Shown: positions 16,824 to 32,065, numbered from the stretch's first letter. The stretch is DNA of 64,000 bases from Salana multivorans (GCF_003751805.1 NZ_RKHQ01000001.1:930001-994000); one strand, 5' to 3'. The notes: generated by a model from the letters alone, not told the origin. Translations and numbers: made by a program.

Positions 16824-18467
16824 GTGACGACCAAGCCCTCACCTACGACCACCCACGTTGCCGACGGCGGCGACACAGCTGCCAGCTCCCCCACGCCGAC
16901 GGCGTGGGTCGTGAGCGTGTTCTCCGAGCGGGTCTTCAACATTGCCGTCGCCAGCGCCGCCCTCCTGGTGATGGCGCTCCCTGTCGGGATCGCCACCATC
17001 TATCTGGGTTTCGTCCATGGGGAGTCCCCCTGCACGCTGTGTGGGTTCGAGCGTTTCGGGATGGTGGTCGTCGCCATCCTGGCGCTCTTCATCCTTCGGT
17101 ACGGACCGCGGCGGAAGTACCTGTTCACCCTGATCCTGACCGCCGTGTTCTTCCTCTACGCCACGGTGATCCAGTGGATGCGCTACGCACCGAGGGACGT
17201 GGGGCAGGGATTTGCGGAGGACGTCTTCGGCGTCCACACCTATACCTGGGGAACGTTCGTATTCTGGGTGATCATTGCGTTTGCCGCGGTCGGCCTCCTG
17301 TGGGTCTCCCGCGATGAGCGGCTTCTCGCCGAGTTCGGTGGCCGCGAGATCAGAGTCAAGCGCTACTCGAGGTACTCGACAGTGGCGGGCGCAGTGACGT
17401 TCGCCATGATCCTCCTGAACTGCGTGCAGTTCCTCATCATCGATGGGCCACCCCCGTTCACCGGGACGGGTCAGCCGCCGCGAATGACGCTCGACATCAC
17501 CAAGACCGCTCCGAACTGGAGCCTGCATCTGTGGGAGCGAGTTGGCACTCTCACCGTCCACAGCTACAGCCCGCCGATGGTTCACATCCCTGGCGTGCAC
17601 GATGTCGAGATGGCGCACACGGGTTCGGCAGCCGATGCTCCTGTGCCGGTCTCGGGCACCCTTGAGCTGCTCGACACGACGCCGCTCGGCTTCGAGGCCG
17701 TCGGACCGTTCGGTGGCCGCGCCGGCGGGATCGCCTACGACGAGGCGACTGGGCTGTTCGGGATCGTGTCGACCGGTGGCGGCCTGTACTACGTCGAGAA
17801 CGACTTCTCCACCGTCGTGTCGAGCGCGGTCCTCGACACTGTGAACGGGAACAACGTGCGGGAGACGACCGACGCCATGTTCCTCGGCCCGAACCAGCTC
17901 GTCGGGCTCGCCTGGAACAAGACGCTCTACGGCGCGCAGCGGGTCGGCGCCGACGAGGCTGACGACTGGGAGTCCTGGAAGGAGTACCGCAGCAGCACGG
18001 GCGACCTGGAACCGCTCTGGGGGGTGAAGTCGCGTCAGATGCTCCAGACGATCCGGGCCAAGTCGGCCTTTGCGCTGAGCATCGCGATGGACCAGGACAC
18101 CGGACGCTACGCGGTCGTCAGCGTCCCTTCTCCGCAGACCGGAGACTTCATCGTCGTCAGCGAGTTCGGCCCCGACCACAAGCTGGCGCGCGAAGGAGTC
18201 CTGACCGCGGGGGAGAGCGAGGTCGACCTGTCCGGTTACTACCCGGTCGGGGCGACGATCCTCGACGGGACCATGTTCCTCCTGTCGAAGACCTACCAGT
18301 CGCTCCTCGTCGTCGACATGGACACGCTCCGGGTCACCGCAACCTGGGAGCTGCCCGAGATCGGGGACTACCACGGGATCGCCGCGGCCGACGGGTCGTT
18401 CTTCGTCCTCGCTGACGACGGCGGCGACGACATCGTGGCGCGACTCGTTCCGCCCACGGGGAGCTGA
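16824..18467 (+). CDS. DsbB-like thiol oxidoreductase fused to an extracellular beta-propeller-like domain
   Basis: A 547-residue protein. Residues 35-165 hold four membrane helices and a DsbB-like motif ESPCTLCGFER (Cys70, Cys73) in the first outer loop, as in DsbB proteins that pass electrons from thiols to quinones. A fifth helix (about 190-212, ILLNCVQFLII) leads to about 330 outer residues with repeated strand patterns (GGIAYDEATGLFGIVS, SIAMDQDTGRYAVV, YHGIAAADGSFFVLADD), probably a beta-propeller. The second outer loop has no cysteine, so the second redox pair of classical DsbB is missing. GTG at 16824. Naming the first domain DsbB rests on the motif and topology only. Confidence 0.65.
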   Translation: MTTKPSPTTTHVADGGDTAASSPTPTAWVVSVFSERVFNIAVASAALLVMALPVGIATIYLGFVHGESPCTLCGFERFGMVVVAILALFILRYGPRRKYLFTLILTAVFFLYATVIQWMRYAPRDVGQGFAEDVFGVHTYTWGTFVFWVIIAFAAVGLLWVSRDERLLAEFGGREIRVKRYSRYSTVAGAVTFAMILLNCVQFLIIDGPPPFTGTGQPPRMTLDITKTAPNWSLHLWERVGTLTVHSYSPPMVHIPGVHDVEMAHTGSAADAPVPVSGTLELLDTTPLGFEAVGPFGGRAGGIAYDEATGLFGIVSTGGGLYYVENDFSTVVSSAVLDTVNGNNVRETTDAMFLGPNQLVGLAWNKTLYGAQRVGADEADDWESWKEYRSSTGDLEPLWGVKSRQMLQTIRAKSAFALSIAMDQDTGRYAVVSVPSPQTGDFIVVSEFGPDHKLAREGVLTAGESEVDLSGYYPVGATILDGTMFLLSKTYQSLLVVDMDTLRVTATWELPEIGDYHGIAAADGSFFVLADDGGDDIVARLVPPTGS

Positions 18468-20994: not shown

Positions 20995-22021
20995 CGACGA
21001 CCCCACCGGTCGTCGCGTCCAGCACGATCCTGAACCGGGCCTCGCCTGCGCGCAGGCGCTCGAGCGCTGCCTGGGCGGCGCCCAGGGGCGCTCGTTCGAT
21101 CACGGGCCGCACCCCGGTGAGGACGGCGAACCTCATGGCCTCCTCGGTGTCGAGCGGGCTGCCTGTGAGCTGGCCCGTCACGGTCTGCGCCTTCGACACC
21201 AGCTGCCCCACCGGGATCGCAAGCTGCTCGCCGTCGACACCGACGAGGACTAGCCGCCCATGGGCGCGCAGACCGGTCGACAGCTCCGCCAACGCAGCCG
21301 TCCGGTGCGCCGTGCCGACGATGGCATCGACGCCGCCGAGCTCGGCCAGGGCCGCCCCCGGCGCGAGGACGGTCGAATCGACGTAGTGGTGCGCGCCAAG
21401 CTCCCGTGCCGGTCCCTCGCGCTCCGCCCCGCGGGCGACCACGATGACCTCGTAGCCCAGTCGCGCCGCAAACTGGACCGCCAGATGCCCGAGGCCGCCC
21501 AGCCCAACGACTGCGACCCGCCCGCCAGAAGGTGTCCCCGAGCGCCGCAGGGCGTTGAACGTCGTGACGCCGGCGCACCCCATCGGTGCCGCGTCGCGGA
21601 GGTCAAGCCCCTCGGGTACGCGCGCCAGGGCAGCGGCCGGGACGGTGACGGACTGAGACCAGCCGCCCGGATAGCTCACACCGGGGACCATCCGCTCCGG
21701 GCAGTGCACGACATCGCCTCGACGGCACGCGTCGCAGTGCCCACAGCTGCCGCCGAACCACCCGACGGCCACACGGTCACCCTCGTCCCAACCCGCCACG
21801 CCGGCGCCAACCTCGGCGACAGTTCCGGCGATCTCGTGCCCTGGGGTCACGGGGAGCGAACCCGCGCCAGCGGCCGCCGTCGCCAGGTCAGCACGGCACA
21901 TCCCGCTCGCGACCACAGCCACCCGGACCCACCCCGGCATCGGCGGCTCAACCTCGACGAGCTCGGCCGTCAGGGGCGCCCCGGGGGCTCGGACTCGCAT
22001 CGTGACTGCGGATGCCGCCAT
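20987..22021 (-). CDS. zinc-dependent alcohol dehydrogenase (MDR family)
   Basis: A 344-residue medium-chain dehydrogenase. Catalytic zinc ligands are in SGMCRADL and TPGHEIAG, and the structural zinc site is the four-Cys cluster CGHCDACRRGDVVHC. The NAD(P) site is VVGLGGLGHLAVQFA. It belongs to the AdhP/AdhT-like group that interconverts alcohols and aldehydes. It is the first gene of the ADH-MFS-amine oxidase operon; the aldehyde made by the amine oxidase would be a natural substrate. ATG at 22021 with GGGAGG upstream. Confidence 0.88.
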   Translation of the reverse strand: MAASAVTMRVRAPGAPLTAELVEVEPPMPGWVRVAVVASGMCRADLATAAAGAGSLPVTPGHEIAGTVAEVGAGVAGWDEGDRVAVGWFGGSCGHCDACRRGDVVHCPERMVPGVSYPGGWSQSVTVPAAALARVPEGLDLRDAAPMGCAGVTTFNALRRSGTPSGGRVAVVGLGGLGHLAVQFAARLGYEVIVVARGAEREGPARELGAHHYVDSTVLAPGAALAELGGVDAIVGTAHRTAALAELSTGLRAHGRLVLVGVDGEQLAIPVGQLVSKAQTVTGQLTGSPLDTEEAMRFAVLTGVRPVIERAPLGAAQAALERLRAGEARFRIVLDATTGGVVDG

Positions 22022-22178
22022 GGCTGGACGCCTCCCGGGCTCGCCGGACGGGCCCCGCGCCCATCCGCCGACCGACGCTACGGCGGGGACGGCGCAGCCG
22101 GTAGCCCGAGCGAACGAATCCAGCGATAACCCACTTGTATGGCCGGAGGCGGGAGCACGCCAGCAGGAGAGGGGACAA

Positions 22179-22201
22179 GGTCATACGTGAGCGCTATGAC
22201 C
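22179..22201. promoter_or_regulatory. palindrome GGTCATA-N9-TATGACC between divergent genes
   Basis: A perfect 7-bp inverted repeat with a 9-base spacer lies between the alcohol dehydrogenase gene (minus) and a small plus-strand gene. It contains a T-N11-A core (T22184, A22196), as LysR-family boxes do. The cognate regulator is not identified; the LysR at 15.5 kb is one candidate. Confidence 0.55.
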
Positions 22202-22310
22202 GCATTCGCAGCGCTCCCCTACCGGCACGGAGAGGCCATTCCTAGCCTGAGGCGTGGCCGTCCCGCGCCACGTCCCCGGCCGCCGCCGAGGCCGCACACG
22301 AAGGAGAACC

Positions 22311-22592
22311 ATGGCTTATCTGGAGATCACCCTGACCGTCGAGGAGGCCGATCGACCCGCGGCCGCCGACGTCTACACGCGCTACCGACAGCCGTTCCTC
22401 GACACGGTGCGCGGAGCGGTGAGCAAGCAGCTGCTCGTGCGCGAGGAGGACGTCCAGGTGTTGCACGGCTTCGAGACCGTCGCTGACGCGCAGGCCTATC
22501 TGTCGAGCGATCTGTTCACCACGGATGTCGTCGCCGGCCTCGCCCCGCTGCTGAAGGCCGAGCCCGAGATCCGTATCTACGAGAACGTCTGA
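22311..22592 (+). CDS. small protein, possible dimeric alpha/beta-barrel (ABM-like)
   Basis: A 93-residue protein beginning MAYLEITLTVEEADRPAA. The alternation of strands and helices and the end VAGLAPLLKAEPEIRIYENV suggest a ferredoxin-like dimeric alpha/beta-barrel, similar in outline to antibiotic-biosynthesis monooxygenase/YgiN-type proteins. This is a weak structural guess. GGAG lies 7 bases before the ATG. It is divergent from the ADH operon and shares its palindromic control region, so it may take part in the same oxidation chemistry. Confidence 0.6.
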   Translation: MAYLEITLTVEEADRPAAADVYTRYRQPFLDTVRGAVSKQLLVREEDVQVLHGFETVADAQAYLSSDLFTTDVVAGLAPLLKAEPEIRIYENV

Positions 22593-22608
22593 CCGCGCCG
22601 ACACGATC

Positions 22609-22646
22609 GCCCGGGCCGCGCCGACCTGCCGTCGGCCGGCTCGGGC
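22609..22646. terminator. hairpin between convergent genes
   Basis: GCCGAC-N5-GTCGGC is nested in an outer GCCCG...CGGGC pairing. It lies between the small plus-strand gene (stop at 22592) and the stop of the minus-strand lipoprotein gene at 22664. Confidence 0.6.
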
Positions 22647-22663
22647 TCACCGATGACCAAGGC

Positions 22664-23869
22664 TCACAGCCCGGCGTCGCCCGCACCCTCCGGCTCGTAG
22701 ACGGTCGCCACGAGGTAGCCGCGGTCGTGCACGAGCACGCTGGCTCCGTTGGGAGCGATCTGCCAGGGAACGACGATGGCGCCCTCCCTCCCCGGGTCGT
22801 ACGCCTCCGCCACCGCTCCGGTGATGACGTTGTGCACCCGCAGCACGTCACCCTCGCGCAGGTAGAGGAGAACGCCGCCCAGCGCCGCGATCGTCGTTCC
22901 GGGCGCCACCGTCTGTGACCACAGTGCTTCGCGGTCGCGGTCGAACGCCTGCAGCGTCGCCCCGTCGAGCGTGACGAGAGCACCGCTCGTGGCATCGACG
23001 GCCACCTCGGTGACGCTCTCGCTCAGGACTGCACCGGAGCCCAGGTCGATCAGTACGCCGCGCGCATCCGCCGGGTCGGACACGGTGAGGATCACCAGCC
23101 CCGGTGCCGGCGGAGCCTCCGGCGAGGCTGAGACGGCGCTCGAGCCCCACCCATGGTCGGCGAGCTCGACACGCCAGAGCTCGGAGTCATCGGCCGTCGC
23201 CCGCGCGACCAAGGCATCGGACTCGACGGTGAGCACGACGCCGCCGTACTCACCAACGAGGCGGACCTCCCCGGAGGCCGTCTCGGCTACGGCAACCCGA
23301 CCGGTACCGGGATCCAGCGCCGTCCGCGGCCCGGTCTCACCCATCATCCCAGCGGGCGGAGCAGCGAAGACCAGGCCGGGGCCCTGGTGCGGCCCGGACA
23401 CCTCGACCGGACCCCACACCCTTCTCCCCGTCGCCAGCTCATAGGCCGTCGCGGTGACCGCGGCTAGCGCCTCGCCGGTGGTCTCGGTGTCGGTGAGCAC
23501 AGCCAGAGCCCGGCCTGCTCCGTCGGTCGTGACGACGAACCCGGCACAGCTCGCCGGCCGCTGCGCCGACCACAGCACCTCGCCGGTGTCCGCCAGCGCC
23601 GTGAACTCCAGGACCCCGTCGCGCTCGGCGCCGCCGAGATAGATGCCATCGGCATACTGCGGCTCGGTCACCCATCCGGGTTCGACCACCCGCAGCTCCT
23701 CGTCCGGGATCGGGAGTCGCATCTCGCTGATGTCGACGGCCGGCAACAGCTCTCCGACGACGCGGGGCTCGCGTTCCACCTCGGGTGAGGGCGAGCCGCA
23801 CCCGACCAGTAGGAGCGTTGAGGCGACGACGAGAGCGGTGACGGTGCGGGGCCGGGGTCGACGACTCAT
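22664..23869 (-). CDS. PQQ-like beta-propeller lipoprotein
   Basis: A 401-residue exported lipoprotein. The signal peptide ends in a lipobox LLVGCG (Cys near residue 24). The rest shows about six or seven repeats of the PQQ-like propeller pattern (GRRVWGPVEV, DSELWRVEL, REALWSQTV, GEVLWSAQR, each with a Trp). There is no enzyme motif; such domains usually serve as assembly platforms or redox cofactor shells. It overlaps the stop of the next gene by four bases (ATGA), making it the third gene of DsbA-CcdA-lipoprotein read right to left... more exactly CcdA is upstream and this gene is downstream of it. It may partner the thiol-disulfide proteins. Confidence 0.8.
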   Translation of the reverse strand: MSRRPRPRTVTALVVASTLLLVGCGSPSPEVEREPRVVGELLPAVDISEMRLPIPDEELRVVEPGWVTEPQYADGIYLGGAERDGVLEFTALADTGEVLWSAQRPASCAGFVVTTDGAGRALAVLTDTETTGEALAAVTATAYELATGRRVWGPVEVSGPHQGPGLVFAAPPAGMMGETGPRTALDPGTGRVAVAETASGEVRLVGEYGGVVLTVESDALVARATADDSELWRVELADHGWGSSAVSASPEAPPAPGLVILTVSDPADARGVLIDLGSGAVLSESVTEVAVDATSGALVTLDGATLQAFDRDREALWSQTVAPGTTIAALGGVLLYLREGDVLRVHNVITGAVAEAYDPGREGAIVVPWQIAPNGASVLVHDRGYLVATVYEPEGAGDAGL

Positions 23870-24756
23870 TGCTCGTTCCCACCCTGCTCGACGATCGGGG
23901 CCTCCGGACCGCCCGAGATCAGGCCTCCAGAGCCCCGGTCCCGCCGTAGTCGCCAGACCCAGACCAGGAGGATCGCGCCCGCCACCATGACGACGACGAG
24001 GACATCAAGGACCGGACCGCTCAGCTGGGCCACCCGTTCCTGCAGCCACGCCTGTGCCGCGATCGGGACGAGCTCCGGCGTCCCAACGAGGCCGTTCGTC
24101 GTCCAGAACACGACGCCGACGACCATGATGAGCAGGCCGCTGACCACGGAGGTCGTGTGCAGCCGCCGGCCGAGCAGCGTGAACGAGCGGCCCCGGAGGA
24201 CCCGCTGGCCGCGGGCGCCCAGCCGCCGCCACAGCAGGGCGACGAGAAGGAGTGGCACGACCATGCCGGCACCGTAGACGGCGAGCAGCAGCGCTGCGGC
24301 GAGGGTGTCGCCCCGGGCCGCCGCCAGCGTCAGAACCGCGCCGAGGATGGGCCCCGCGCAGAAGCCCGCGACTCCGCTGGCCGACCCGAGCAGGAGTGTC
24401 TTGGCGATACCCGTGCTGGCCGCGGCACGCGAGTGCAAGTCGGGGCCGGGCAGCAGCCGGGCCGGGTCGAACCCGAAGCCGAGCGCCTGGGCCGCACCGA
24501 GAACGATCATCACCAGCGAGGCCACGAGCACGACCGCCTGGCGATGGGTCACGAAGAGCGCGCCGACTGTGCCGGCGCCGACGCCGAGCGGCACCAGCAC
24601 CGCGAGGAGCCCGAGGTAGAACACGGCCCCGTGCAGAAGCAGCCGAGGTCCCGTCCCGACCGTCGAGGCGAAGAACGCGGGTAGGAGCAGCGCTCCGCAC
24701 GGGCTCAGCAGCGCGAGCGCGCCGCCGAGGAAGGCGGCAAGGAGCCCGATGTCCAT
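23866..24756 (-). CDS. ccdA: CcdA/DsbD-like thiol electron-transfer membrane protein
   Basis: A 296-residue membrane protein of the CcdA (DsbD transmembrane) family, which carries electrons from cytoplasmic thioredoxin to extracytoplasmic thiol proteins. The two catalytic cysteines sit where expected: LLSPCGALLLPAF in helix 1 (Cys20) and SGVAGFCAGPILGA in helix 4 (Cys133). The sequence continues past the usual six helices with one extra C-terminal helix and a charged tail. ATG at 24756 is chosen over an in-frame GTG at 24765, because the first helix then starts at once. It lies 5 bases from the DsbA-like gene stop. Confidence 0.85.
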   Translation of the reverse strand: MDIGLLAAFLGGALALLSPCGALLLPAFFASTVGTGPRLLLHGAVFYLGLLAVLVPLGVGAGTVGALFVTHRQAVVLVASLVMIVLGAAQALGFGFDPARLLPGPDLHSRAAASTGIAKTLLLGSASGVAGFCAGPILGAVLTLAAARGDTLAAALLLAVYGAGMVVPLLLVALLWRRLGARGQRVLRGRSFTLLGRRLHTTSVVSGLLIMVVGVVFWTTNGLVGTPELVPIAAQAWLQERVAQLSGPVLDVLVVVMVAGAILLVWVWRLRRDRGSGGLISGGPEAPIVEQGGNEQ

Positions 24757-24761
24757 CCCGG

Positions 24762-25517
24762 TCACCTCGCTGCGGCGAGAGCGGCCGCGAACGCGTCGAG
24801 GAACACCGCCGACGGCTGCGCGCCGACGATCGGCTGCCCGCCGAGGATGAAGGCGGGGGTGGAGTAAGCGCCCAGGTCGATGCCGAGCTGGGCGTTCTCG
24901 GTGATCTGCGCGACCGTCTCCGCCGAGGCCAGATCGGCGGTGAAGCGCTCGACGTCCAGACCGAGCTCCTCGGCAAGCGCGATCAGCGCCTCGTCGCCTA
25001 GCTCGTTCTCGGTACGGGTGGCACCGCCCTCGAACAGACGGTCGTGGTACTCCCAGAACACGCCCTGCTTTGCTGCGGCGTACGAGGCGCGAGCCGCGCG
25101 CTCCGATGCAGGCCCGAAGACGTTGACGTCGCGCCACTCGATCCGCAGCTCGCCAGCATCGACGTGATCCATCAGCAGCGGCAGCGTCTCGGCACTCCAC
25201 CGCGCGCAGAATGGACACTGGTAGTCGGAGAAGACCACGAGTGCGACGGGCGCATCCACTGGTCCCACCGCGAGCAGATCGTCCGCCTCCCGACGCTCGG
25301 CCGACCTGAGGTCGAGCTGCTCGGGTCCCTGCACCTCGGTTGGACCCCCGGGAACGGGCGCTGTGGCTGCCGGCTCCGCGCCGGAGTCACGGTTCCGGCT
25401 CATCGCGAGCACCAGTGCGACGATGACGGCGGCGACGGCAAGCACTGCGACGGGTACCAGCCAGGAAGGGTTCGAAGAACGACGCCTCCCAGACGCACGG
25501 CTCGGCTGGACAGGCAC
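24762..25517 (-). CDS. membrane-anchored DsbA-like thiol-disulfide oxidoreductase
   Basis: A 251-residue protein with a basic N-terminus, one anchor (about residues 20-39), a Pro/Gly linker and a Thioredoxin_4/DsbA domain. The redox motif CPFC is at residues 101-104 (SDYQCPFCARW) and the cis-Pro loop is YSTPAFILGG. It would introduce or reshuffle disulfides in exported proteins. GTG at 25517 is chosen because GGGGAGA lies 7 bases upstream. First gene of the DsbA-CcdA-lipoprotein operon, divergent from the CPVC-BlaI-M56 operon with shared operator DNA between. Confidence 0.88.
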   Translation of the reverse strand: MPVQPSRASGRRRSSNPSWLVPVAVLAVAAVIVALVLAMSRNRDSGAEPAATAPVPGGPTEVQGPEQLDLRSAERREADDLLAVGPVDAPVALVVFSDYQCPFCARWSAETLPLLMDHVDAGELRIEWRDVNVFGPASERAARASYAAAKQGVFWEYHDRLFEGGATRTENELGDEALIALAEELGLDVERFTADLASAETVAQITENAQLGIDLGAYSTPAFILGGQPIVGAQPSAVFLDAFAAALAAAR

Positions 25518-25569
25518 GGGCACTCTCCCCACATCACGACAGTGCGTCCCGATGAGGACGCCACGCTCT

Positions 25570-25607
25570 ACTATCGCAGATAGTCGACTAAGGCGGATAG
25601 TCGACTC
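25570..25607. promoter_or_regulatory. candidate BlaI operators between divergent operons
   Basis: Three palindromic elements lie side by side: ACTATC-GCA-GATAGT (25570-25584), the perfect 10-mer TAGTCGACTA (25581-25590) and a near copy TAGTCGACTC (25598-25607). The word GATAGTCGACT is directly repeated with a 17-base step. They precede a -10-like CACAAT (25612-25617). Control by the BlaI-type repressor encoded 570 bases away is inferred from position and palindromy. Confidence 0.6.
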
Positions 25608-25624
25608 GTGGCACAATGGGATGG

Positions 25625-26179
25625 ATGCTTCCCCTCTCGGAGTCACGCAGCCGCGCCACTCAGCGGGGCCTCGCGCTGACTCTTCACGCTCTGCGGGCCT
25701 GGACCGCGCGTGAGCTGTGGGTCGCGGTTACGGCGGGCCTCGCGGTCACCCTCGTCATCGGACTGGCGACGGTCCTGATCCCCAACCCGGCCTTCGGTCG
25801 GGACGTTCCGCCGGTGTGGTGGAACTACCCGGTGTGGCTCCTCACCTCGGCCCTGTCAGGCATGCTCGTCGCCACGTACGTCCGTCCCGCCTCTGAGGAC
25901 CCGGCCACCCTCTCGACCGCCCTCGACGACGAGGGTCGACGAGCGAGTCGCATGGGCGTGGCCGGCGGGTTCCTAGCGTGGTTCGCTGTGGGTTGCCCCG
26001 TCTGCAACAAGCTCGCACTCCTGGCCCTCGGCTACTCGGGGGCGCTCACGTGGTTCGCCCCCGTCCAGCCGTTCCTCGCGGTCGGTGCGATGCTTCTGAC
26101 GGGCGCGGCGTTGGAGCGGCGACTTCGGGGCCAGATCGCCTGCCCGGTGAGCCCCGGCCGACTCGAGGACGCGCGGTGA
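25625..26179 (+). CDS. four-helix membrane protein with intramembrane CPVC motif
   Basis: A 184-residue protein with four predicted membrane helices (about 31-52, 63-86, 109-135, 143-163). The third contains AVGCPVCNKLALLALG, a CxxC pair (Cys124, Cys127) at the membrane boundary, reminiscent of VKOR/DsbB quinone-linked oxidoreductases but not recognisably homologous. A further Cys lies in the tail (GQIACPV). ATG at 25625 is preferred because CACAAT ends 7 bases before it (leaderless); another in-frame ATG at 25616 overlaps that -10. The stop overlaps the BlaI gene (GTGA). Likely a thiol redox protein; unproven. Confidence 0.7.
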   Translation: MLPLSESRSRATQRGLALTLHALRAWTARELWVAVTAGLAVTLVIGLATVLIPNPAFGRDVPPVWWNYPVWLLTSALSGMLVATYVRPASEDPATLSTALDDEGRRASRMGVAGGFLAWFAVGCPVCNKLALLALGYSGALTWFAPVQPFLAVGAMLLTGAALERRLRGQIACPVSPGRLEDAR

Positions 26180-26565
26180 GCGACGAGTCTGGCGCGGCCC
26201 CGAGCCGGTTCGGGCTGGGGGCGCTCGAGGCGCAGGTGATGGACGTGCTGTGGGACAACGGGCCGTCGACTATCCGCGAAGTGATCGACCACCTCGCCTC
26301 CCACCCCGCCTACACCACGATCGCGACGGTGCTGACCAACCTGGATCGCAAGCGTCTGCTGACGATCACCCGGCAGAACCGCTCGACCCGGTACGCGACC
26401 CGGACCAGCCGGGAACAGCACGCGGCCGAGCAGATCGAGCAGGTCCTTCGAGCGAGCCGCGACCGCAGGGCGTCGATCCTCGAGTTCATCAACTCGATGC
26501 CGCAGGACGACCTCGACCTCCTGCGCAGCTACCTCGACGACCACGACCGGGGGAAGGAGCCGTGA
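26176..26565 (+). CDS. BlaI/MecI/CopY-family repressor
   Basis: A 129-residue winged-helix repressor. The DNA-binding part LGALEAQVMDVLWDNGPSTIREVIDHL, then YTTIATVLTNLDRKRLL, is typical of BlaI/MecI, followed by a helical dimerisation tail (EQIEQVLRASRDRRASILEFINSM). In this family, repression is lifted when a membrane M56 peptidase is activated. Here the M56 gene follows with a 4-base overlap. No beta-lactamase or penicillin-binding protein lies nearby; the likely targets are the flanking thiol-redox operons. GTG at 26176. Confidence 0.88.
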   Translation: MSDESGAAPSRFGLGALEAQVMDVLWDNGPSTIREVIDHLASHPAYTTIATVLTNLDRKRLLTITRQNRSTRYATRTSREQHAAEQIEQVLRASRDRRASILEFINSMPQDDLDLLRSYLDDHDRGKEP

Positions 26566-27542
26566 CCGCACTCGCGCTGACGGCCCTCCTCGCCGGCGGA
26601 CTGATCACCCTCGCCATCGCCGGCCCGTGGCTGCTCCGACAGGCCGCGCCGACACTGGTCCGCATCCCACGGCTGGCGATCGCCCTGACCAGCACCGGCG
26701 TCGTCGCATGGCTAGGGTCGCTGCTCGCGGTCGGCCCGGTGCTTGCCTGGGCCGGCTCCGGGCCCGCACTGCTTCCAGAGCCTGCGGCCGCCGTCTGCCG
26801 TAGGTGTCTGGCCGCAGCCACCCCATTCGGGCTCGACGCTTCCAGCACCGCGGTCCCGGCCGCGCTGCTCCTGGCGCTGCCCGCTGCGTTCGGGCTCACG
26901 CTAGCCACCAGCCTGGCCTCCCACGTGCTCCATCGGGAGCGGCGATCCCGCCACGCCGCCGAAGGCCTGCTCCTGGCCGCGCGACGACGGATCATCCGCG
27001 GGCACACGGTCTCCGTCATCGACTCGGACCACCCGTTCGCTCTCGCGCTCCCACGCCGACACGGTGGAGTCCTACTGTCCACCGGAGCCCTCGCTACGCT
27101 CGACGCGGTCGAGCTGGACGCCGTCCTGGCCCACGAACAGGCACACCTGCGCCAGCACCATCACGCCATCAACATGCTCGTCACCAGCCTTGCCGCACTC
27201 CTTCGGTGGGTCCCGCTGATCCGGGCCGCGGCCGACGCTCTGCCGCACTACCTCGAGATCGCAGCTGACGACCAGGCACGTCGCCGCACCAGCACGTCGG
27301 CGCTCGTCAGCGCCCTGGTCAAGCTCAGCAACCCATCCGGACACAGCGTTCCCCCGCACGCCCCCGCCGAGGCTCTCCATGCTGCTGCCGGTCCCAGCCG
27401 GGTCCGCCAGCTCGTTCAGCCCGCGGTCGGACCCACCGGCACGATCCCGACTGTCCTAGCAGGCCTCTACGTCGCCGCCCTCGCGGTCATCGGCGCGGCG
27501 GCGCACGCGCCCTACCTCGTGGCAGCCCTGACCGGCTGCTGA
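26562..27542 (+). CDS. M56-family membrane metallopeptidase (BlaR1/MecR1-like sensor)
   Basis: A 326-residue membrane protein with helices near residues 2-22, 33-62, 98-122 and 300-318 and a cytoplasmic gluzincin domain carrying HEQAH (His191-His195) and a downstream EIAADDQA glutamate. It lacks the extracellular penicillin-binding domain of BlaR1, so the signal it senses must differ. A CRRC motif (AAVCRRCLAA, near residue 80) in the outer loop after helix 2 could act as a redox sensor; that is inference. GTG at 26562 overlaps the BlaI stop. Confidence 0.82.
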   Translation: MTALALTALLAGGLITLAIAGPWLLRQAAPTLVRIPRLAIALTSTGVVAWLGSLLAVGPVLAWAGSGPALLPEPAAAVCRRCLAAATPFGLDASSTAVPAALLLALPAAFGLTLATSLASHVLHRERRSRHAAEGLLLAARRRIIRGHTVSVIDSDHPFALALPRRHGGVLLSTGALATLDAVELDAVLAHEQAHLRQHHHAINMLVTSLAALLRWVPLIRAAADALPHYLEIAADDQARRRTSTSALVSALVKLSNPSGHSVPPHAPAEALHAAAGPSRVRQLVQPAVGPTGTIPTVLAGLYVAALAVIGAAAHAPYLVAALTGC

Positions 27543-27751
27543 CGCGCGGACCACGCCAGGGCTAGGGGTGCCGGTCAACAAGACCGACACTCAGGGCAGA
27601 CCGGGCATGGAAGGAAAGGACGAGATCACTCGGCGCGGCGGCACCCTCCGCCGGCGCCCAAGGGCTCAACACGATTGCGCTGGCTCACCTGCGGATCTAG
27701 TCTGACTACGCCGTCAACTCAGTGGCAGCTTCCCGAGGGAGTGGCATCACG

Positions 27752-27967
27752 ATGGTCCGCGCAACGCGCGATTTCGACCGCAACCGGACGGTGAGCACGG
27801 TCGTCGAGCGGATCCACACGCTCCATCCAGAGCTCGACAAGGCCGCGCTCAAGACTCGAGTCGAAGAGAGGGTCCTCACTCTCTCGGACGCCCCGATCAC
27901 GGACTTCATCGACGTCCTGGCTGAGCGCTCCGTCCGCAACGACCTCCACCTCCCGCCAACTAACTAG
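27752..27967 (+). CDS. three-helix-bundle dimerisation-domain-like small protein
   Basis: A 71-residue soluble protein of three helices: VVERIHTLHPELD, AALKTRVEERVLTL and FIDVLAERSVRNDL. The pattern resembles the small actinobacterial three-helix-bundle dimerisation domain proteins, of unknown role. ATG at 27752 follows GAGGGAG at 10 bases; an in-frame GTG at 27722 is a weaker alternative. It is flanked by about 200-270 bases without genes on each side and seems monocistronic. Confidence 0.6.
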   Translation: MVRATRDFDRNRTVSTVVERIHTLHPELDKAALKTRVEERVLTLSDAPITDFIDVLAERSVRNDLHLPPTN

Positions 27968-28238
27968 GCAGACGGATGGCCGGGTTCCCGGCGGCGGTCG
28001 CGATCGACCGCCACTCGGCACCTGGCTAGACGACGCGTCATCCGGGTGAGTCTCCTACCCCGAGCAGGGCGCGTGGTTTCAGCCACGCGCGCCGACCGGG
28101 CCCGCCGAGGTCTCTGCGGCTCTCGGAAGAGCGCAACCGATCGTTCTCAAGAGGCCCACGCACCCAGCGAGGTCACCCAGCACACCGGACACCTCGGTCA
28201 GGCCGCGCAGGCGGAGGCTCTTCCATCATCCGGAGGCG

Positions 28239-28278
28239 ATGAAGGGTGCGGCTCCTGAGAAGGAGCCGCACCCTTCAT
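28239..28278. terminator. perfect 18-bp hairpin after the adhesin gene
   Basis: ATGAAGGGTGCGGCTCCT and AGGAGCCGCACCCTTCAT form an 18-bp stem with a GAGA loop. It lies 44 bases past the stop of the minus-strand adhesin gene and probably ends that transcript. Confidence 0.85.
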
Positions 28279-28321
28279 CTAGGTCGGCGCGTGCGGAGGG
28301 GGGAGCCGCACGCGCCGGGCC

Positions 28322-31300
28322 TTAGGCGCGCGCCTTGCGAAGACGCAGGGCGGTACCGCCCAGCGCGAGCGCCGTGAGCGCGACGAGGGCTAGCCCCACG
28401 GTGTTGGCGGCACCGGTGGACGGCAGAGGCTCGGTCGCCTTCGGGCTGGGCGTCGGGGTGATCTCGACACGGGTCGTGTCGTCATCGGTGACGTTGGGGC
28501 CCTGGGGCGGGACCGCGGTGACAGTCGCGGTGTTGTTGACCTCTCCGGCGTTGATGTCCTCCTTGGTGAGGGCGTACGTGGCCGTGGCCACGACGCTCTC
28601 GCCCGGCGCAAGGGTTCCCGGGCTGAGGGGCCACTGCCCGTACGTGATGGCAGTGAGTCCCGGCAGCTCGTCGGTGATCACGACGTCGCGGAGAGTCGTG
28701 CTCCCGGTGTTGGTGACGGTGAAGGTGAAGGTGACGAGATCTCCCACCTTGCCGGTCGCGTCGCTGCCCAGGCCGCCGGTCTTGACGATCTGGATCGCCG
28801 AGACCGCTTCGACGGGGACGGTCTCGTCGTCGACATCGCTCACTGGATCCCCCTGCGGCGGGAGGCCCGTCACGGTGGCGGTGTTGTCGACCCGAGCGGC
28901 GTCGACATCAGCCTGGGTCAGCGGATAGGTCGCCGTCGCCGACACGGACTCCCCCGAGGCCAGGCTGCCCGCGGCGCCCGGCCACTCACCGAACGTGATG
29001 GCGCTGAGACCCGGAAGCTCGTCGGTCAGAACGATGCCGTCGAGCGTGACGTTTCCCGTGTTCGTCACGAGGAAGGTGTAGATGACGAGGTCACCTGCCG
29101 TCCCCGTGGCGCCGGCTTCGAGCGCACCGGTCTTGACCAGGTCGATCGCGGGGACGTGGGGGACGGGCTGCTCGTGCTCGTCCTCGTCGTCCACGGGCGG
29201 ACCGCTGGGGGGATTCCCCGTGGTGGTCGCGGTGTTGTGGACCTGTCCGGCGTCGACGTCGGCCTGCGTCAGGGTGTAGGTGGCCGAAGCGGTCACCGAC
29301 TCGGCGGGCGCGAGGACGCCCGCTTCGGCCGGCCAGGCGTCGAACACGATCTGCGAGAGACCCGGCAGGCTGTCATGGAGCTCCACACCGCTCAAGGTGA
29401 CGTTTCCAGCATTGGTGATCGTGAAGGAGTACCGGATCTGGTCACCCACACCTGAAGCAGCTCCCTGCTCGAGGGCGCCGGTCTTGATCAGGTCGATCCG
29501 AGGTCCCTGGGGAACAGGAACGGTCTCGTCGTCCTCATCGTTGACGGGCGGGCCGCTGGGCGGGGTACCCGTGGCCGAAGCCGTGTTGTCCACCTGTCCA
29601 GCATCGACGTCGGCCTGCGTCAGGGTGTACGTCGCGGTCGCGACAACCGACTCCTCCGGCGCGAGAACACGCTCGAGGGAAGGCCACTCGCCGAAGGTGA
29701 TGGCCGAGAGACCCGGAAGCTCGTCGGTCAGGTCGACTGCGGTGAGCGTCACGTTTCCGACGTTCGTGATCTCGAACGTGTACTCGACCAGGTCGCCCGC
29801 GACCCCAGTCGACTCCTCCGCCAGGCTGCCGCTCTTCACCAGCGTGAGCTGAGGCAGCTGCGGGAGCGGCTGCTCGTCCTCGTCCTCGTCCTGCACCGGC
29901 GGACCGCTGGGCGGCGTGCCGGTGCTGGTCGCGTGGTTGTTCACCACCCCGGCGTCGACGTCAGCCTGCGTCAGCGCGTAGGTCGCGCGCGCCTCGACCG
30001 ACTCGCCGGGAGCAAGGACTCCCGCCTGCGCCGGCCACTGAGAGAAGACGATCTCCGACAGACCGGGCAGCTCGTCAGCGATGGTGACACCGGTCAGCGT
30101 GGTGTTGCCGACGTTGGTCACGGTGAACGCGTACTCGATCCGATCACCTGCGACGCCCGCGGCGCCAGCCGCCAGGTTCCCGGTCTTGACGAGCTCGATC
30201 GCGGGCGTGGGGCTGATGGTGACGGTCTCGTCGTCCTCGTCGCTCACCGAAGGGCCCTGCGGAGGAGTTCCCGTCGTGGTCGCGGTGTTGTCCACCCTCC
30301 CGGCGTCGACATCTGCCTGCGTGAGGGAGTAGGTCGCGGTGGCAGTCACCGACTCGCCCGCGGCGAGGACCCCCTGCTGAGCGGGCCACGGACCGAAGAC
30401 GATCGCCGACAGACCCGGAAGCTGGTCCGTGACGGTGACATCACGCAGCGTGACGTTGCCGGCGTTCGTGACCAGGAACGAGTACGTGACGACGTCACCG
30501 ACGCGTCCGGTGGCGTCTGCTGCGAGGGCCGCCGTCTTCACCAGCTCGATGCTCGGCGTCTGGGGAAGAGGCTGCTCGTCCTCGTCCTCGTCCTCGACCG
30601 GAGGGCCGCTGGGCGGGTTACCCGTCACGCTGGCGATGTTGTCGACAAGCCCCGCGTCCACGTCAGTCGCAGTCAGGACGTAGGTGGCCGTTGCGTTGAC
30701 CGACTCCCCCGGCGCGAGGGTTCCGGGCTGAGAGGGCCATGACCCGAACTCGATCTCGGACAGGCCGGGCATCTCGTCGGTGAGGGAGACGGAGGTGAGC
30801 GGAACCGCGCCGGTGTTGGTGACGGTGAACTGGTAGCTCACCAGGTCGCCCGCCGCGCCTGTCGCTCCCTCGCTGAGCGCGCCGGTCTTCGTCAGAGAGA
30901 TGCTGGAGCTGGGGTTGACCGGGACGGTCTCGTCATCGTCGTCCGCCACGGGGTCCCCGGCGGGCGGGGTGCCGGTCACGCTGGCCGTGTTCTCGACATA
31001 CCCACGCGCGATGTCCTCCGATGTCAGGACGTAGGTCGCGGTGGCGCTCACGCTCTCCCCCGGCGCCAGCACTCCTGCGGCGGCGGGCCACTGGCCGAAG
31101 GTGATCTCCGAGAGGCCGGGGAGCTGATCGACGAGGGTGACCGAGCCGAGGGTGACCGCACCGGTGTTCGTCACGGCGAAGGAGTACTCCACCGTGTCTC
31201 CGGCGTAGCCGTAGGCACCGGCCGCGAGCTGCGCCGACTTCTGCAGGTCGATCTCAGCGCAGTTCTGGTTGACGATCTGCACCAGCGTCTGCCGGAGCGC

Positions 31301-32065
31301 GTCGAACCCGCCGACGTAGTAGTCGCTGCCCTCGACCGTTCCTGAGACCTGGCTGATGTTCTCGCGGAACTCGACCAGGCCAGCACCCGTGACGTTGTCG
31401 TTCACGCCGATCGGGATGACGCGCGTGCCGGCCGCCTTCAGAGCGTTCGCGCTGGTGACCGCCGCGTTGATCGTGGCGACATCGGTCGAGCTGCCGGGCC
31501 CCTGAGCGGGGCTCCCGTACTGCGTGGGGTTGCCATCGGTCACCAGGAGCAGCGCGTCGTACGTCTCAGGCGCAGACGTGACGGCGGCGAAGGCGCGGTC
31601 CCAGTTGGTCCCGCCCGCCCCCGACGCCGGACGCTGAAGGTCCGCCACGTGCGAGGAGATGAGCGAGATCCCCTCGGCATCGAGGGCGGTCAGCGGCAGG
31701 GCCTGGTTGGACGCGTCTGCCGTCGCGGGGGCGTCGGAGGCGAAGTTGTGCAGAGCGAGCCGGACCGGGTAGCCCTGAAGGTCCTCGGCCAGCGCCGTGA
31801 GAGCGGCCTTGGCCTGCTCCAGCTGAGCGTCCGCCACCGAGTTGGACAGGTCAAGGCTGATGGCCAGATCAAGATCGCATCGATCGGGCATCGCAGGGTT
31901 GGAGGCGACCGGGACGGTTGCCTCCACAGCCTGTGCGCTGGCGATGCCCCCCGCGAGAGCAACCGTGCTGGCGAGCGCAACGCCGACGGCGCGTCGAAGG
32001 CGCCGTCCTCGAGTCGAACCCGGCGATGCTGATGGCGGACTGCTTCTGCGTGGTTGTGACGTCAC
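28322..32065 (-). CDS. LPXTG-anchored VWA adhesin with eight DUF11/DUF7507-like repeats
   Basis: A 1247-residue exported surface protein. A signal peptide (about residues 20-50) is followed by a von Willebrand A domain (about 60-270) with MIDAS residues DLSNS, GGTNWDRA and TDGNP. From residue 272 to about 1207 run eight tandem repeats of exactly 117 residues each (KTG...GDxVxYxFxVTN, PGLSxIxFGxWP, LAPGESVxATATY, PPxGPPVxDEDE). The end has LPSTG, a hydrophobic helix and a basic RLRKARA tail: a sortase signal. GTG at 32065 follows AGGAG at 8 bases. It probably projects from the wall and binds a surface. The divergent LuxR-type gene may control it. Confidence 0.88.
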   Translation of the reverse strand: MTSQPRRSSPPSASPGSTRGRRLRRAVGVALASTVALAGGIASAQAVEATVPVASNPAMPDRCDLDLAISLDLSNSVADAQLEQAKAALTALAEDLQGYPVRLALHNFASDAPATADASNQALPLTALDAEGISLISSHVADLQRPASGAGGTNWDRAFAAVTSAPETYDALLLVTDGNPTQYGSPAQGPGSSTDVATINAAVTSANALKAAGTRVIPIGVNDNVTGAGLVEFRENISQVSGTVEGSDYYVGGFDALRQTLVQIVNQNCAEIDLQKSAQLAAGAYGYAGDTVEYSFAVTNTGAVTLGSVTLVDQLPGLSEITFGQWPAAAGVLAPGESVSATATYVLTSEDIARGYVENTASVTGTPPAGDPVADDDDETVPVNPSSSISLTKTGALSEGATGAAGDLVSYQFTVTNTGAVPLTSVSLTDEMPGLSEIEFGSWPSQPGTLAPGESVNATATYVLTATDVDAGLVDNIASVTGNPPSGPPVEDEDEDEQPLPQTPSIELVKTAALAADATGRVGDVVTYSFLVTNAGNVTLRDVTVTDQLPGLSAIVFGPWPAQQGVLAAGESVTATATYSLTQADVDAGRVDNTATTTGTPPQGPSVSDEDDETVTISPTPAIELVKTGNLAAGAAGVAGDRIEYAFTVTNVGNTTLTGVTIADELPGLSEIVFSQWPAQAGVLAPGESVEARATYALTQADVDAGVVNNHATSTGTPPSGPPVQDEDEDEQPLPQLPQLTLVKSGSLAEESTGVAGDLVEYTFEITNVGNVTLTAVDLTDELPGLSAITFGEWPSLERVLAPEESVVATATYTLTQADVDAGQVDNTASATGTPPSGPPVNDEDDETVPVPQGPRIDLIKTGALEQGAASGVGDQIRYSFTITNAGNVTLSGVELHDSLPGLSQIVFDAWPAEAGVLAPAESVTASATYTLTQADVDAGQVHNTATTTGNPPSGPPVDDEDEHEQPVPHVPAIDLVKTGALEAGATGTAGDLVIYTFLVTNTGNVTLDGIVLTDELPGLSAITFGEWPGAAGSLASGESVSATATYPLTQADVDAARVDNTATVTGLPPQGDPVSDVDDETVPVEAVSAIQIVKTGGLGSDATGKVGDLVTFTFTVTNTGSTTLRDVVITDELPGLTAITYGQWPLSPGTLAPGESVVATATYALTKEDINAGEVNNTATVTAVPPQGPNVTDDDTTRVEITPTPSPKATEPLPSTGAANTVGLALVALTALALGGTALRLRKARA
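28445..31252 (-). repeat. eight 351-bp coding repeats
   Basis: Each unit encodes exactly 117 residues with no insertion or deletion among the eight. Linkers at unit ends alternate between an ETVPV-type (units 1, 3, 5, 7) and an EQPLP-type (units 2, 4, 6); the last unit has its own ending. At protein level the units are diverged (many substitutions) rather than identical. Confidence 0.85.

Follow-up and report, generated by a model that had tools for sequence, protein, structure and literature searches.

The 64,000-nucleotide stretch of Salana multivorans DNA analyzed here (NZ_RKHQ01000001.1:930001-994000, referred to as the window) carries at positions 22664-27542 six genes, arranged as two divergent operons, in which a BlaI-type repressor and an M56 membrane protease accompany proteins of thiol-disulfide chemistry. 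We lean towards the view that these genes form a module for envelope thiol homeostasis that is self-contained and governed by a BlaI/M56 circuit of its own, with the outer cysteines of the M56 protein acting as a thiol switch. Comparison of related loci gives good support for a dedicated BlaI/M56 circuit, and sensing by M56 through its outer cysteines is plausible. More tentatively, we propose that a cysteine switch between EL1 (the outer loop between helices 2 and 3) and the last helix has replaced the penicillin-binding domain of a BlaR-type protease, that its dedicated regulon includes a new MerT-like membrane protein family with a CPxCN motif, and that the system represents a novel type of thiol sensor acting outside the cytoplasm. 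At the level of sequence, the comparison establishes a conserved module with a dedicated operator, a pattern of outer cysteines in M56 and a BlaI that has no cysteine sensor.

Gene content and conservation

The source genome is actinobacterial, 3.9 Mb in size and assembled in two contigs. The minus-strand operon encodes a propeller lipoprotein (LPP, 22664-23869), a CcdA-like thiol electron transporter (23866-24756) and a DsbA-like exported thioredoxin-fold protein (24762-25532, from a putative GTG start). The plus-strand operon encodes a membrane protein with a CPVC motif (25616-26179), a BlaI-type winged-helix repressor (26176-26565) and an M56 membrane metalloprotease (26562-27542), whose genes overlap at their ends. 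An earlier note, made from the DNA sequence alone, had named these six genes, and all of them lie where it had placed them; Pfam backs DsbA, CcdA, BlaI and M56, and the lipoprotein weakly (PQQ_2, 3e-4). Its description of a thiol-disulfide module in place of a beta-lactamase also holds, as the adjacent genes are DsbA, CcdA, the lipoprotein and CPVC. An Rfam scan of positions 21000-29000 gave no match.

The neighborhood search suggested in that note shows that CPVC co-occurs with BlaI-M56, CcdA and DsbA across many actinobacterial families. CPVC relatives are found in 32 of 297 genomes sampled evenly from the class, representing 23 of 115 genera, and DsbA, CcdA, BlaI and M56 all lie beside CPVC in 8 of the 30 loci of this sample, in several gene orders. 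A second set of 80 loci was collected by scanning GTDB genomes with the CPVC alignment. In this set, which consists of the closest CPVC relatives and does not provide class-wide estimates, the five core genes (CcdA, DsbA, CPVC, BlaI and M56) occur together in 48 loci, 33 of which also have the lipoprotein. The genera include Agrococcus, Isoptericola, Nesterenkonia, Leucobacter, Dietzia, Corynebacterium, Nocardia, Brevibacterium and Amycolatopsis. Plasmids carry the module as well: a Microbacterium plasmid has an arrangement identical to that in the window, and a Pseudonocardia plasmid has the order BlaI-M56-DsbA-CcdA-CPVC, all in one direction. Viral contigs searched with M56 contained no relatives. 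Among 60 further loci sampled from lower-scoring M56 matches, DsbA plus CcdA are near M56 in one (L130), and the DsbA/CcdA wiring therefore appears to belong to an M56 subtype.

Big_10/YkuD L,D-transpeptidase genes were seen near some CPVC loci (L058, L059, L060 and L061, the last checked directly), and these neighbors possibly link that branch to cell-wall enzymes.

Candidate operator

Footprinting across related loci reveals repeated 15-bp palindromes in the gap between the two operons, and on this comparative evidence the pattern WCTATSNNNSATAGW is likely to be the operator of the module. The shared operator region that the earlier note had guessed at 25560-25625 contains two tandem boxes that are absent elsewhere in the genome. 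Box 1, ACTATCGCAGATAGT, at 25570-25584 is the sole exact WCTATSNNNSATAGW site genome-wide, and box 2, ACTAAGGCGGATAGT, at 25587-25601, 17 bp after box 1, is found when one mismatch is allowed; the relaxed pattern matches only these two boxes in the genome. Dinucleotide shuffles of the window gave no boxes. Nine whole genomes contain 17 exact sites, 16 of them within the module, compared to 0 for a reversed-pattern control. The sole operator-like site outside the module in these genomes is G171:C1:4544864-4544878.

In the 80 closest CPVC loci, the box is present in 54 of the 58 with BlaI, compared to 0 of the 22 without it, and because boxes and BlaI co-occur we infer that BlaI binds to them. 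The commonest spacing of tandem boxes is 16-17 bp. Altogether 86 of 97 box sites lie at most 300 bp upstream of CPVC, DsbA, BlaI or LPP, and DsbA genes that are not adjacent to CPVC have a box of their own in 10 of 13 cases. Ten of the remaining 11 sites are found in Microbacterium-type islands, upstream of hyp182, an exported 182-residue protein; L227 has hyp182 oriented divergently to DsbA, and the boxes are common to both. hyp182 (L062 12982-13530, plus strand; L227 1241-1757, minus strand) has several conserved cysteines, an LQTC motif and no Pfam family. It appears sortase-like by eye and is probably a further member of the regulon. The classical BlaI/MecI operator of the TACANNTGTA type was not found in the gap, which holds ACTATSNNNSATAGT-type boxes and no TACA...TGTA. 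A sigma-70 promoter scan of the gap found none.

Repressor and protease

The window BlaI (Penicillinase_R, 2e-24, above the cut-off) is the only match to this family in its genome. It contains no cysteine, and there is no conserved cysteine column among 59 BlaI sequences, so BlaI cannot be the thiol sensor. We also considered a CopY-type copper repressor and rejected it, as the C-terminal metal-binding cysteines are absent; the score against the CopY/TcrY NCBIfam model is 35.5 bits, with a cut-off of 122.

The M56 protein (Peptidase_M56, 40 bits, 3e-10, above the cut-off) has a zinc motif of the HExxH form, HEQAH, at 27132-27146. As the earlier note had stated, it has no penicillin-sensing domain: it is 326 residues long, ends one residue beyond the last helix and matches no such Pfam domain. 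A structural model (mean pLDDT 81) starts with helices 2-32 and 36-66, after which comes a loop of low confidence (67-96); a long helix (97-139) precedes the zinc domain, and the last helix spans 294-325. Loop 67-96 would correspond by analogy to EL1 of BlaR1, the displacement of which starts signaling through helix 3 (PMC9834060). The protein has three cysteines in total, C79 and C82 (26796-26807) and C326 (27537-27539), all predicted to lie outside. The first two form the CRRC motif to which the note had drawn attention. Residues 79-82 do fall in a predicted outer loop, and the CxxC is kept in 53 of 53 members of the close subtype, but in the wider module only its second cysteine and a C-terminal one are retained. 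C326, which is conserved along with the motif, had been overlooked, and the idea of CRRC as the sole sensor was revised accordingly.

Among 75 M56 sequences, C82 and the tail cysteine are both present in 40 and both absent in 28, with the tail cysteine alone in 6 and C82 alone in a single protein, which has an altered tail (Fisher p 1e-13, uncorrected for relatedness). C82 is found in all 12 module members of this set. Both C79 and C82 are invariant in the close set, where the tail cysteine is present in 49 of 53; several of the four exceptions have altered tails or are cut by contig ends. A Streptomyces-like subtype has a single cysteine in EL1 and a CxC tail. Three or four outer cysteines are present in 9 of 11 module M56 proteins, and two in 22 of 26 other M56 proteins with the pair. 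A FastTree phylogeny places 25 of 27 module M56 proteins in one clade without outsiders (support 0.94). Those of L061 and L064 fall outside the main module clade, which suggests that BlaI/M56 pairs of other lineages became neighbors of the same genes.

Two further observations concern M56. The gene on a Microbacterium plasmid (L062, 8982-10004) has an apparent frameshift near the C-terminus compared to the near-identical L213-L215, with loss of the outer cysteine. A wider M56 group with the outer cysteine pair (L131-L155) has DUF305, DUF4142, CtaG/CopD and NlpC/P60 neighbors, and its cue could be copper or wall stress.

Thiol proteins of the module

The CcdA-like protein (DsbD_TM, 6e-9, 36 bits over a cut-off of 27) has invariant Cys20 and Cys133, both present in 55 of 56 sequences, the other row being a gap. 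A role in cytochrome c biogenesis was considered and rejected, since ResB adjoins the second CcdA of the genome (C1:714 kb) and not the module copy, which is therefore probably not for cytochrome c. The DsbA-like protein matches DSBA (1e-18) and Thioredoxin_4, and its CPFC active site lies at 25206-25217, the CxxC being conserved in 63 of 63 sequences. Among solved chains, the nearest carry the name DsbA (e.g. 4pwp). That its partner is CcdA suggests a DsbA-like protein maintained in the reduced state. The lipoprotein has a lipobox cysteine, Cys24, and a second, largely conserved Cys108, present in 6 of 6 sequences in one comparison and in 30 of 38 in another; the family is found in 5 loci of the evenly sampled set.

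The CPVC protein has the motif GCPVCNK and belongs to no Pfam family. C127 and C130 are conserved in 59 of 59 sequences and C176 in 58 of 59. Weak matches to MerT were obtained for 10 of 25 family members (best 1.2e-4), with none at the Pfam cut-off and none for the window protein itself. A search of the PDB with the CPVC model gave no usable fold match. The CPxCN proteins are an unnamed, conserved and distantly MerT-like membrane protein family.

Proposed mechanism

In the proposed circuit, dimers of BlaI would repress both operons by binding to the tandem boxes that lie between dsbA and the CPVC gene. M56 keeps the layout of BlaR1, with four membrane helices and a cytoplasmic zinc domain, the penicillin sensor being gone. 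Of its three predicted outer cysteines, two (or one) lie in EL1 and one (or two) just after the last helix, where the BlaR1 sensor would begin, and together they would probably provide a disulfide plus a free thiol that tie EL1 to the last helix. Oxidation, reduction, persulfidation or capture of a thiol by metal would alter this bond and shift helix 3, whereupon the protease would become active, BlaI would be cleaved and the module induced. CcdA would then pass cytoplasmic electrons to the DsbA-like protein for repair or recycling of thiols outside, with CPVC and the lipoprotein as accessory thiol- or sulfur-handling parts. In this circuit, the binding and cleavage of BlaI, the formation of a disulfide, the inducer and the flow of electrons are what we infer.

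That M56 reads the outer thiol state is the best explanation, because BlaI is without cysteine, M56 has no sensor domain, its conserved outer residues are cysteines at the signaling loop and at the attachment point of the sensor, and the proteins under its control are thiol proteins. The inducer could be an oxidant, reactive sulfur or a thiophilic metal, so that repair after oxidation, as proposed in the earlier note, is only one option among several. Reactive sulfur or a thiophilic metal is also possible because CPVC and part of the loci lie beside persulfide or sulfite genes and because CPVC is distantly MerT-like.

Alternative explanations

Several points weigh against the proposed circuit. 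A fold search with the M56 model retrieves M48-type proteases and Staphylococcus aureus BlaR1 with modest scores (E 0.1-0.7 for the BlaR1 structures), the model being built from 11 sequences. The nearest solved relatives of the DsbA-like protein are perhaps oxidases, so the pathway may run in either direction. The outer cysteine pair is also present in 26 of 60 non-module actinobacterial M56 proteins, with neighbors that include DUF305, CtaG/CopD and NlpC/P60. The pair itself may thus be structural or serve another signal, and since it is found outside the module it may be an older feature that was reused there.

It is accordingly conceivable, though in our view rather unlikely, that the pair is merely a structural disulfide and that M56 senses some other cue, such as cell-wall stress or the state of the propeller lipoprotein. 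The occurrence of the same pair in many M56 proteins beside NlpC/P60, DUF305 and other genes fits this explanation. However, most module M56 proteins have a third outer cysteine and control thiol genes specifically, and the position of the third cysteine differs by subtype (either EL1 has a CxxC or the tail has a CxC), as though a third thiol were important. The lipoprotein, moreover, is missing from some otherwise complete modules.

A response to reactive sulfur is a special case of the thiol-homeostasis module, and its probability overlaps with that of the latter; taken by itself we consider it unlikely. Extracellular persulfide, polysulfide or sulfide would be the inducer, and the module would be the envelope arm beside cytoplasmic CsoR/CstR. 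The closest plasmid relatives sit with MBL-fold/rhodanese, TauE, TrxA and CsoR genes, a set that in Streptomyces coelicolor deals with sulfane sulfur (PMC7533328). Persulfide-detoxification genes of this set are near 10-13 of the 58 BlaI loci and 3-6 of the 22 CPVC loci without BlaI, and rhodanese is the commonest neighbor family of lone CPVC genes, which also have TauE, SLAC1, thioredoxin and MBL-fold genes nearby. On the other hand, about three quarters of the BlaI loci, including that in the window, are without these genes in the flank, and the sulfur islands have their own CsoR. As the outer neighbors of chromosomal module loci include no conserved sulfur genes, the sulfur link is restricted to a subset of loci.

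The inducer could instead be a thiophilic metal, which we likewise judge improbable. Here, the outer thiols of M56 would bind Cu(I), Ag(I) or Hg(II), the module would repair metal-scrambled disulfides, as Scs does for copper, and CPVC would be a MerT-like carrier. Three clustered thiols would suit a soft metal, part of the CPVC family resembles MerT as described above, a metal ATPase is near 5 of the 58 BlaI loci and on some plasmids, and Scs isomerases are tied to copper (PMC5524982). Against this, a metal pump, reductase or metallochaperone is missing from most loci, and none is present in the neighborhood in the window; the window CPVC is itself without a MerT match, and a CopY-type site is impossible in a BlaI without cysteines. 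A chance neighborhood of unrelated genes, for which nothing but the unusual gene mix speaks, is refuted by the conservation across families, the specificity of the operator, the relocated dsbA genes with an operator and the two further M56 lineages joined by the same genes.

Relation to known systems

The module resembles BlaR1/BlaI and MecR1/MecI of Staphylococcus and Bacillus in having adjacent genes for a BlaI-type repressor and an M56 zinc protease and a divergent promoter with boxes. It differs from them in that there is no penicillin sensor and no beta-lactamase or penicillin-binding-protein target, and in its operator, its three outer cysteines and its thiol-gene targets. CopY/TcrY belong to the same repressor superfamily as the module BlaI, which differs in having no cysteine; CopY senses copper itself through C-terminal cysteines. 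Scs likewise combines an exported thioredoxin-fold protein with a DsbD/CcdA-type membrane electron donor. It differs in consisting of other proteins, in Gram-negative bacteria, without CPVC, the lipoprotein or BlaI/M56. MerT and the CPVC family are weakly similar and have a cysteine pair in a membrane protein, but CPVC has the CPxCN motif and no mer genes were seen.

An actinobacterial BlaI/M56 pair is also known in Mycobacterium tuberculosis (Rv1846c/Rv1845c), where the targets of BlaI are blaC and cell-division and ATP-synthase-linked genes (PMC12565901); a literature search found no link to DsbA/CcdA for this BlaI. In Streptomyces, CutRS/CssRS are two-component kinases, in contrast to the protease/repressor pair of the module, and their outer cysteine pair has been proposed as a reporter of the extracellular disulfide state (PMC12802291). 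CutS is a same-phylum precedent for sensing by outer cysteines. The CsoR/CstR sulfane-sulfur circuit (PDO, rhodanese, TauE) responds to reactive sulfur and co-occurs with the module in genomic islands, but its repressor is a cytoplasmic cysteine protein and the locus in the window has no CsoR. Our literature search, which covered journals other than subscription journals, found no paper that joins BlaI/BlaR with DsbA/CcdA or describes the system.

It is well supported by the comparison of loci that many actinobacteria have redirected the BlaI/M56 pair, familiar from penicillin resistance, to a small set of genes for envelope cysteine chemistry. M56 profile matches are present in 157 of 198 genomes sampled, and to our knowledge the cue sensed by most actinobacterial M56 proteases without a penicillin domain is not known. 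The module assigns to one M56 subtype a regulon and an operator, both defined, together with a candidate three-cysteine switch, and if our interpretation is true, signaling by regulated proteolysis extends to thiol chemistry outside the cell. The analysis also defines the CPxCN proteins as a widely conserved family.

Neighboring genes

About 4 kb before the module, the window encodes a DsbB/DsbI-like protein (16824-18467, plus strand) with a CTLC motif in the membrane part and a long C-terminal domain, which could be a second thiol-oxidation component. On the other side, a large surface protein (28322-32065, minus strand) appears vWA-like in its N-terminal part and also has many similar repeats of DUF11-like type and a sortase signal, LPSTG.

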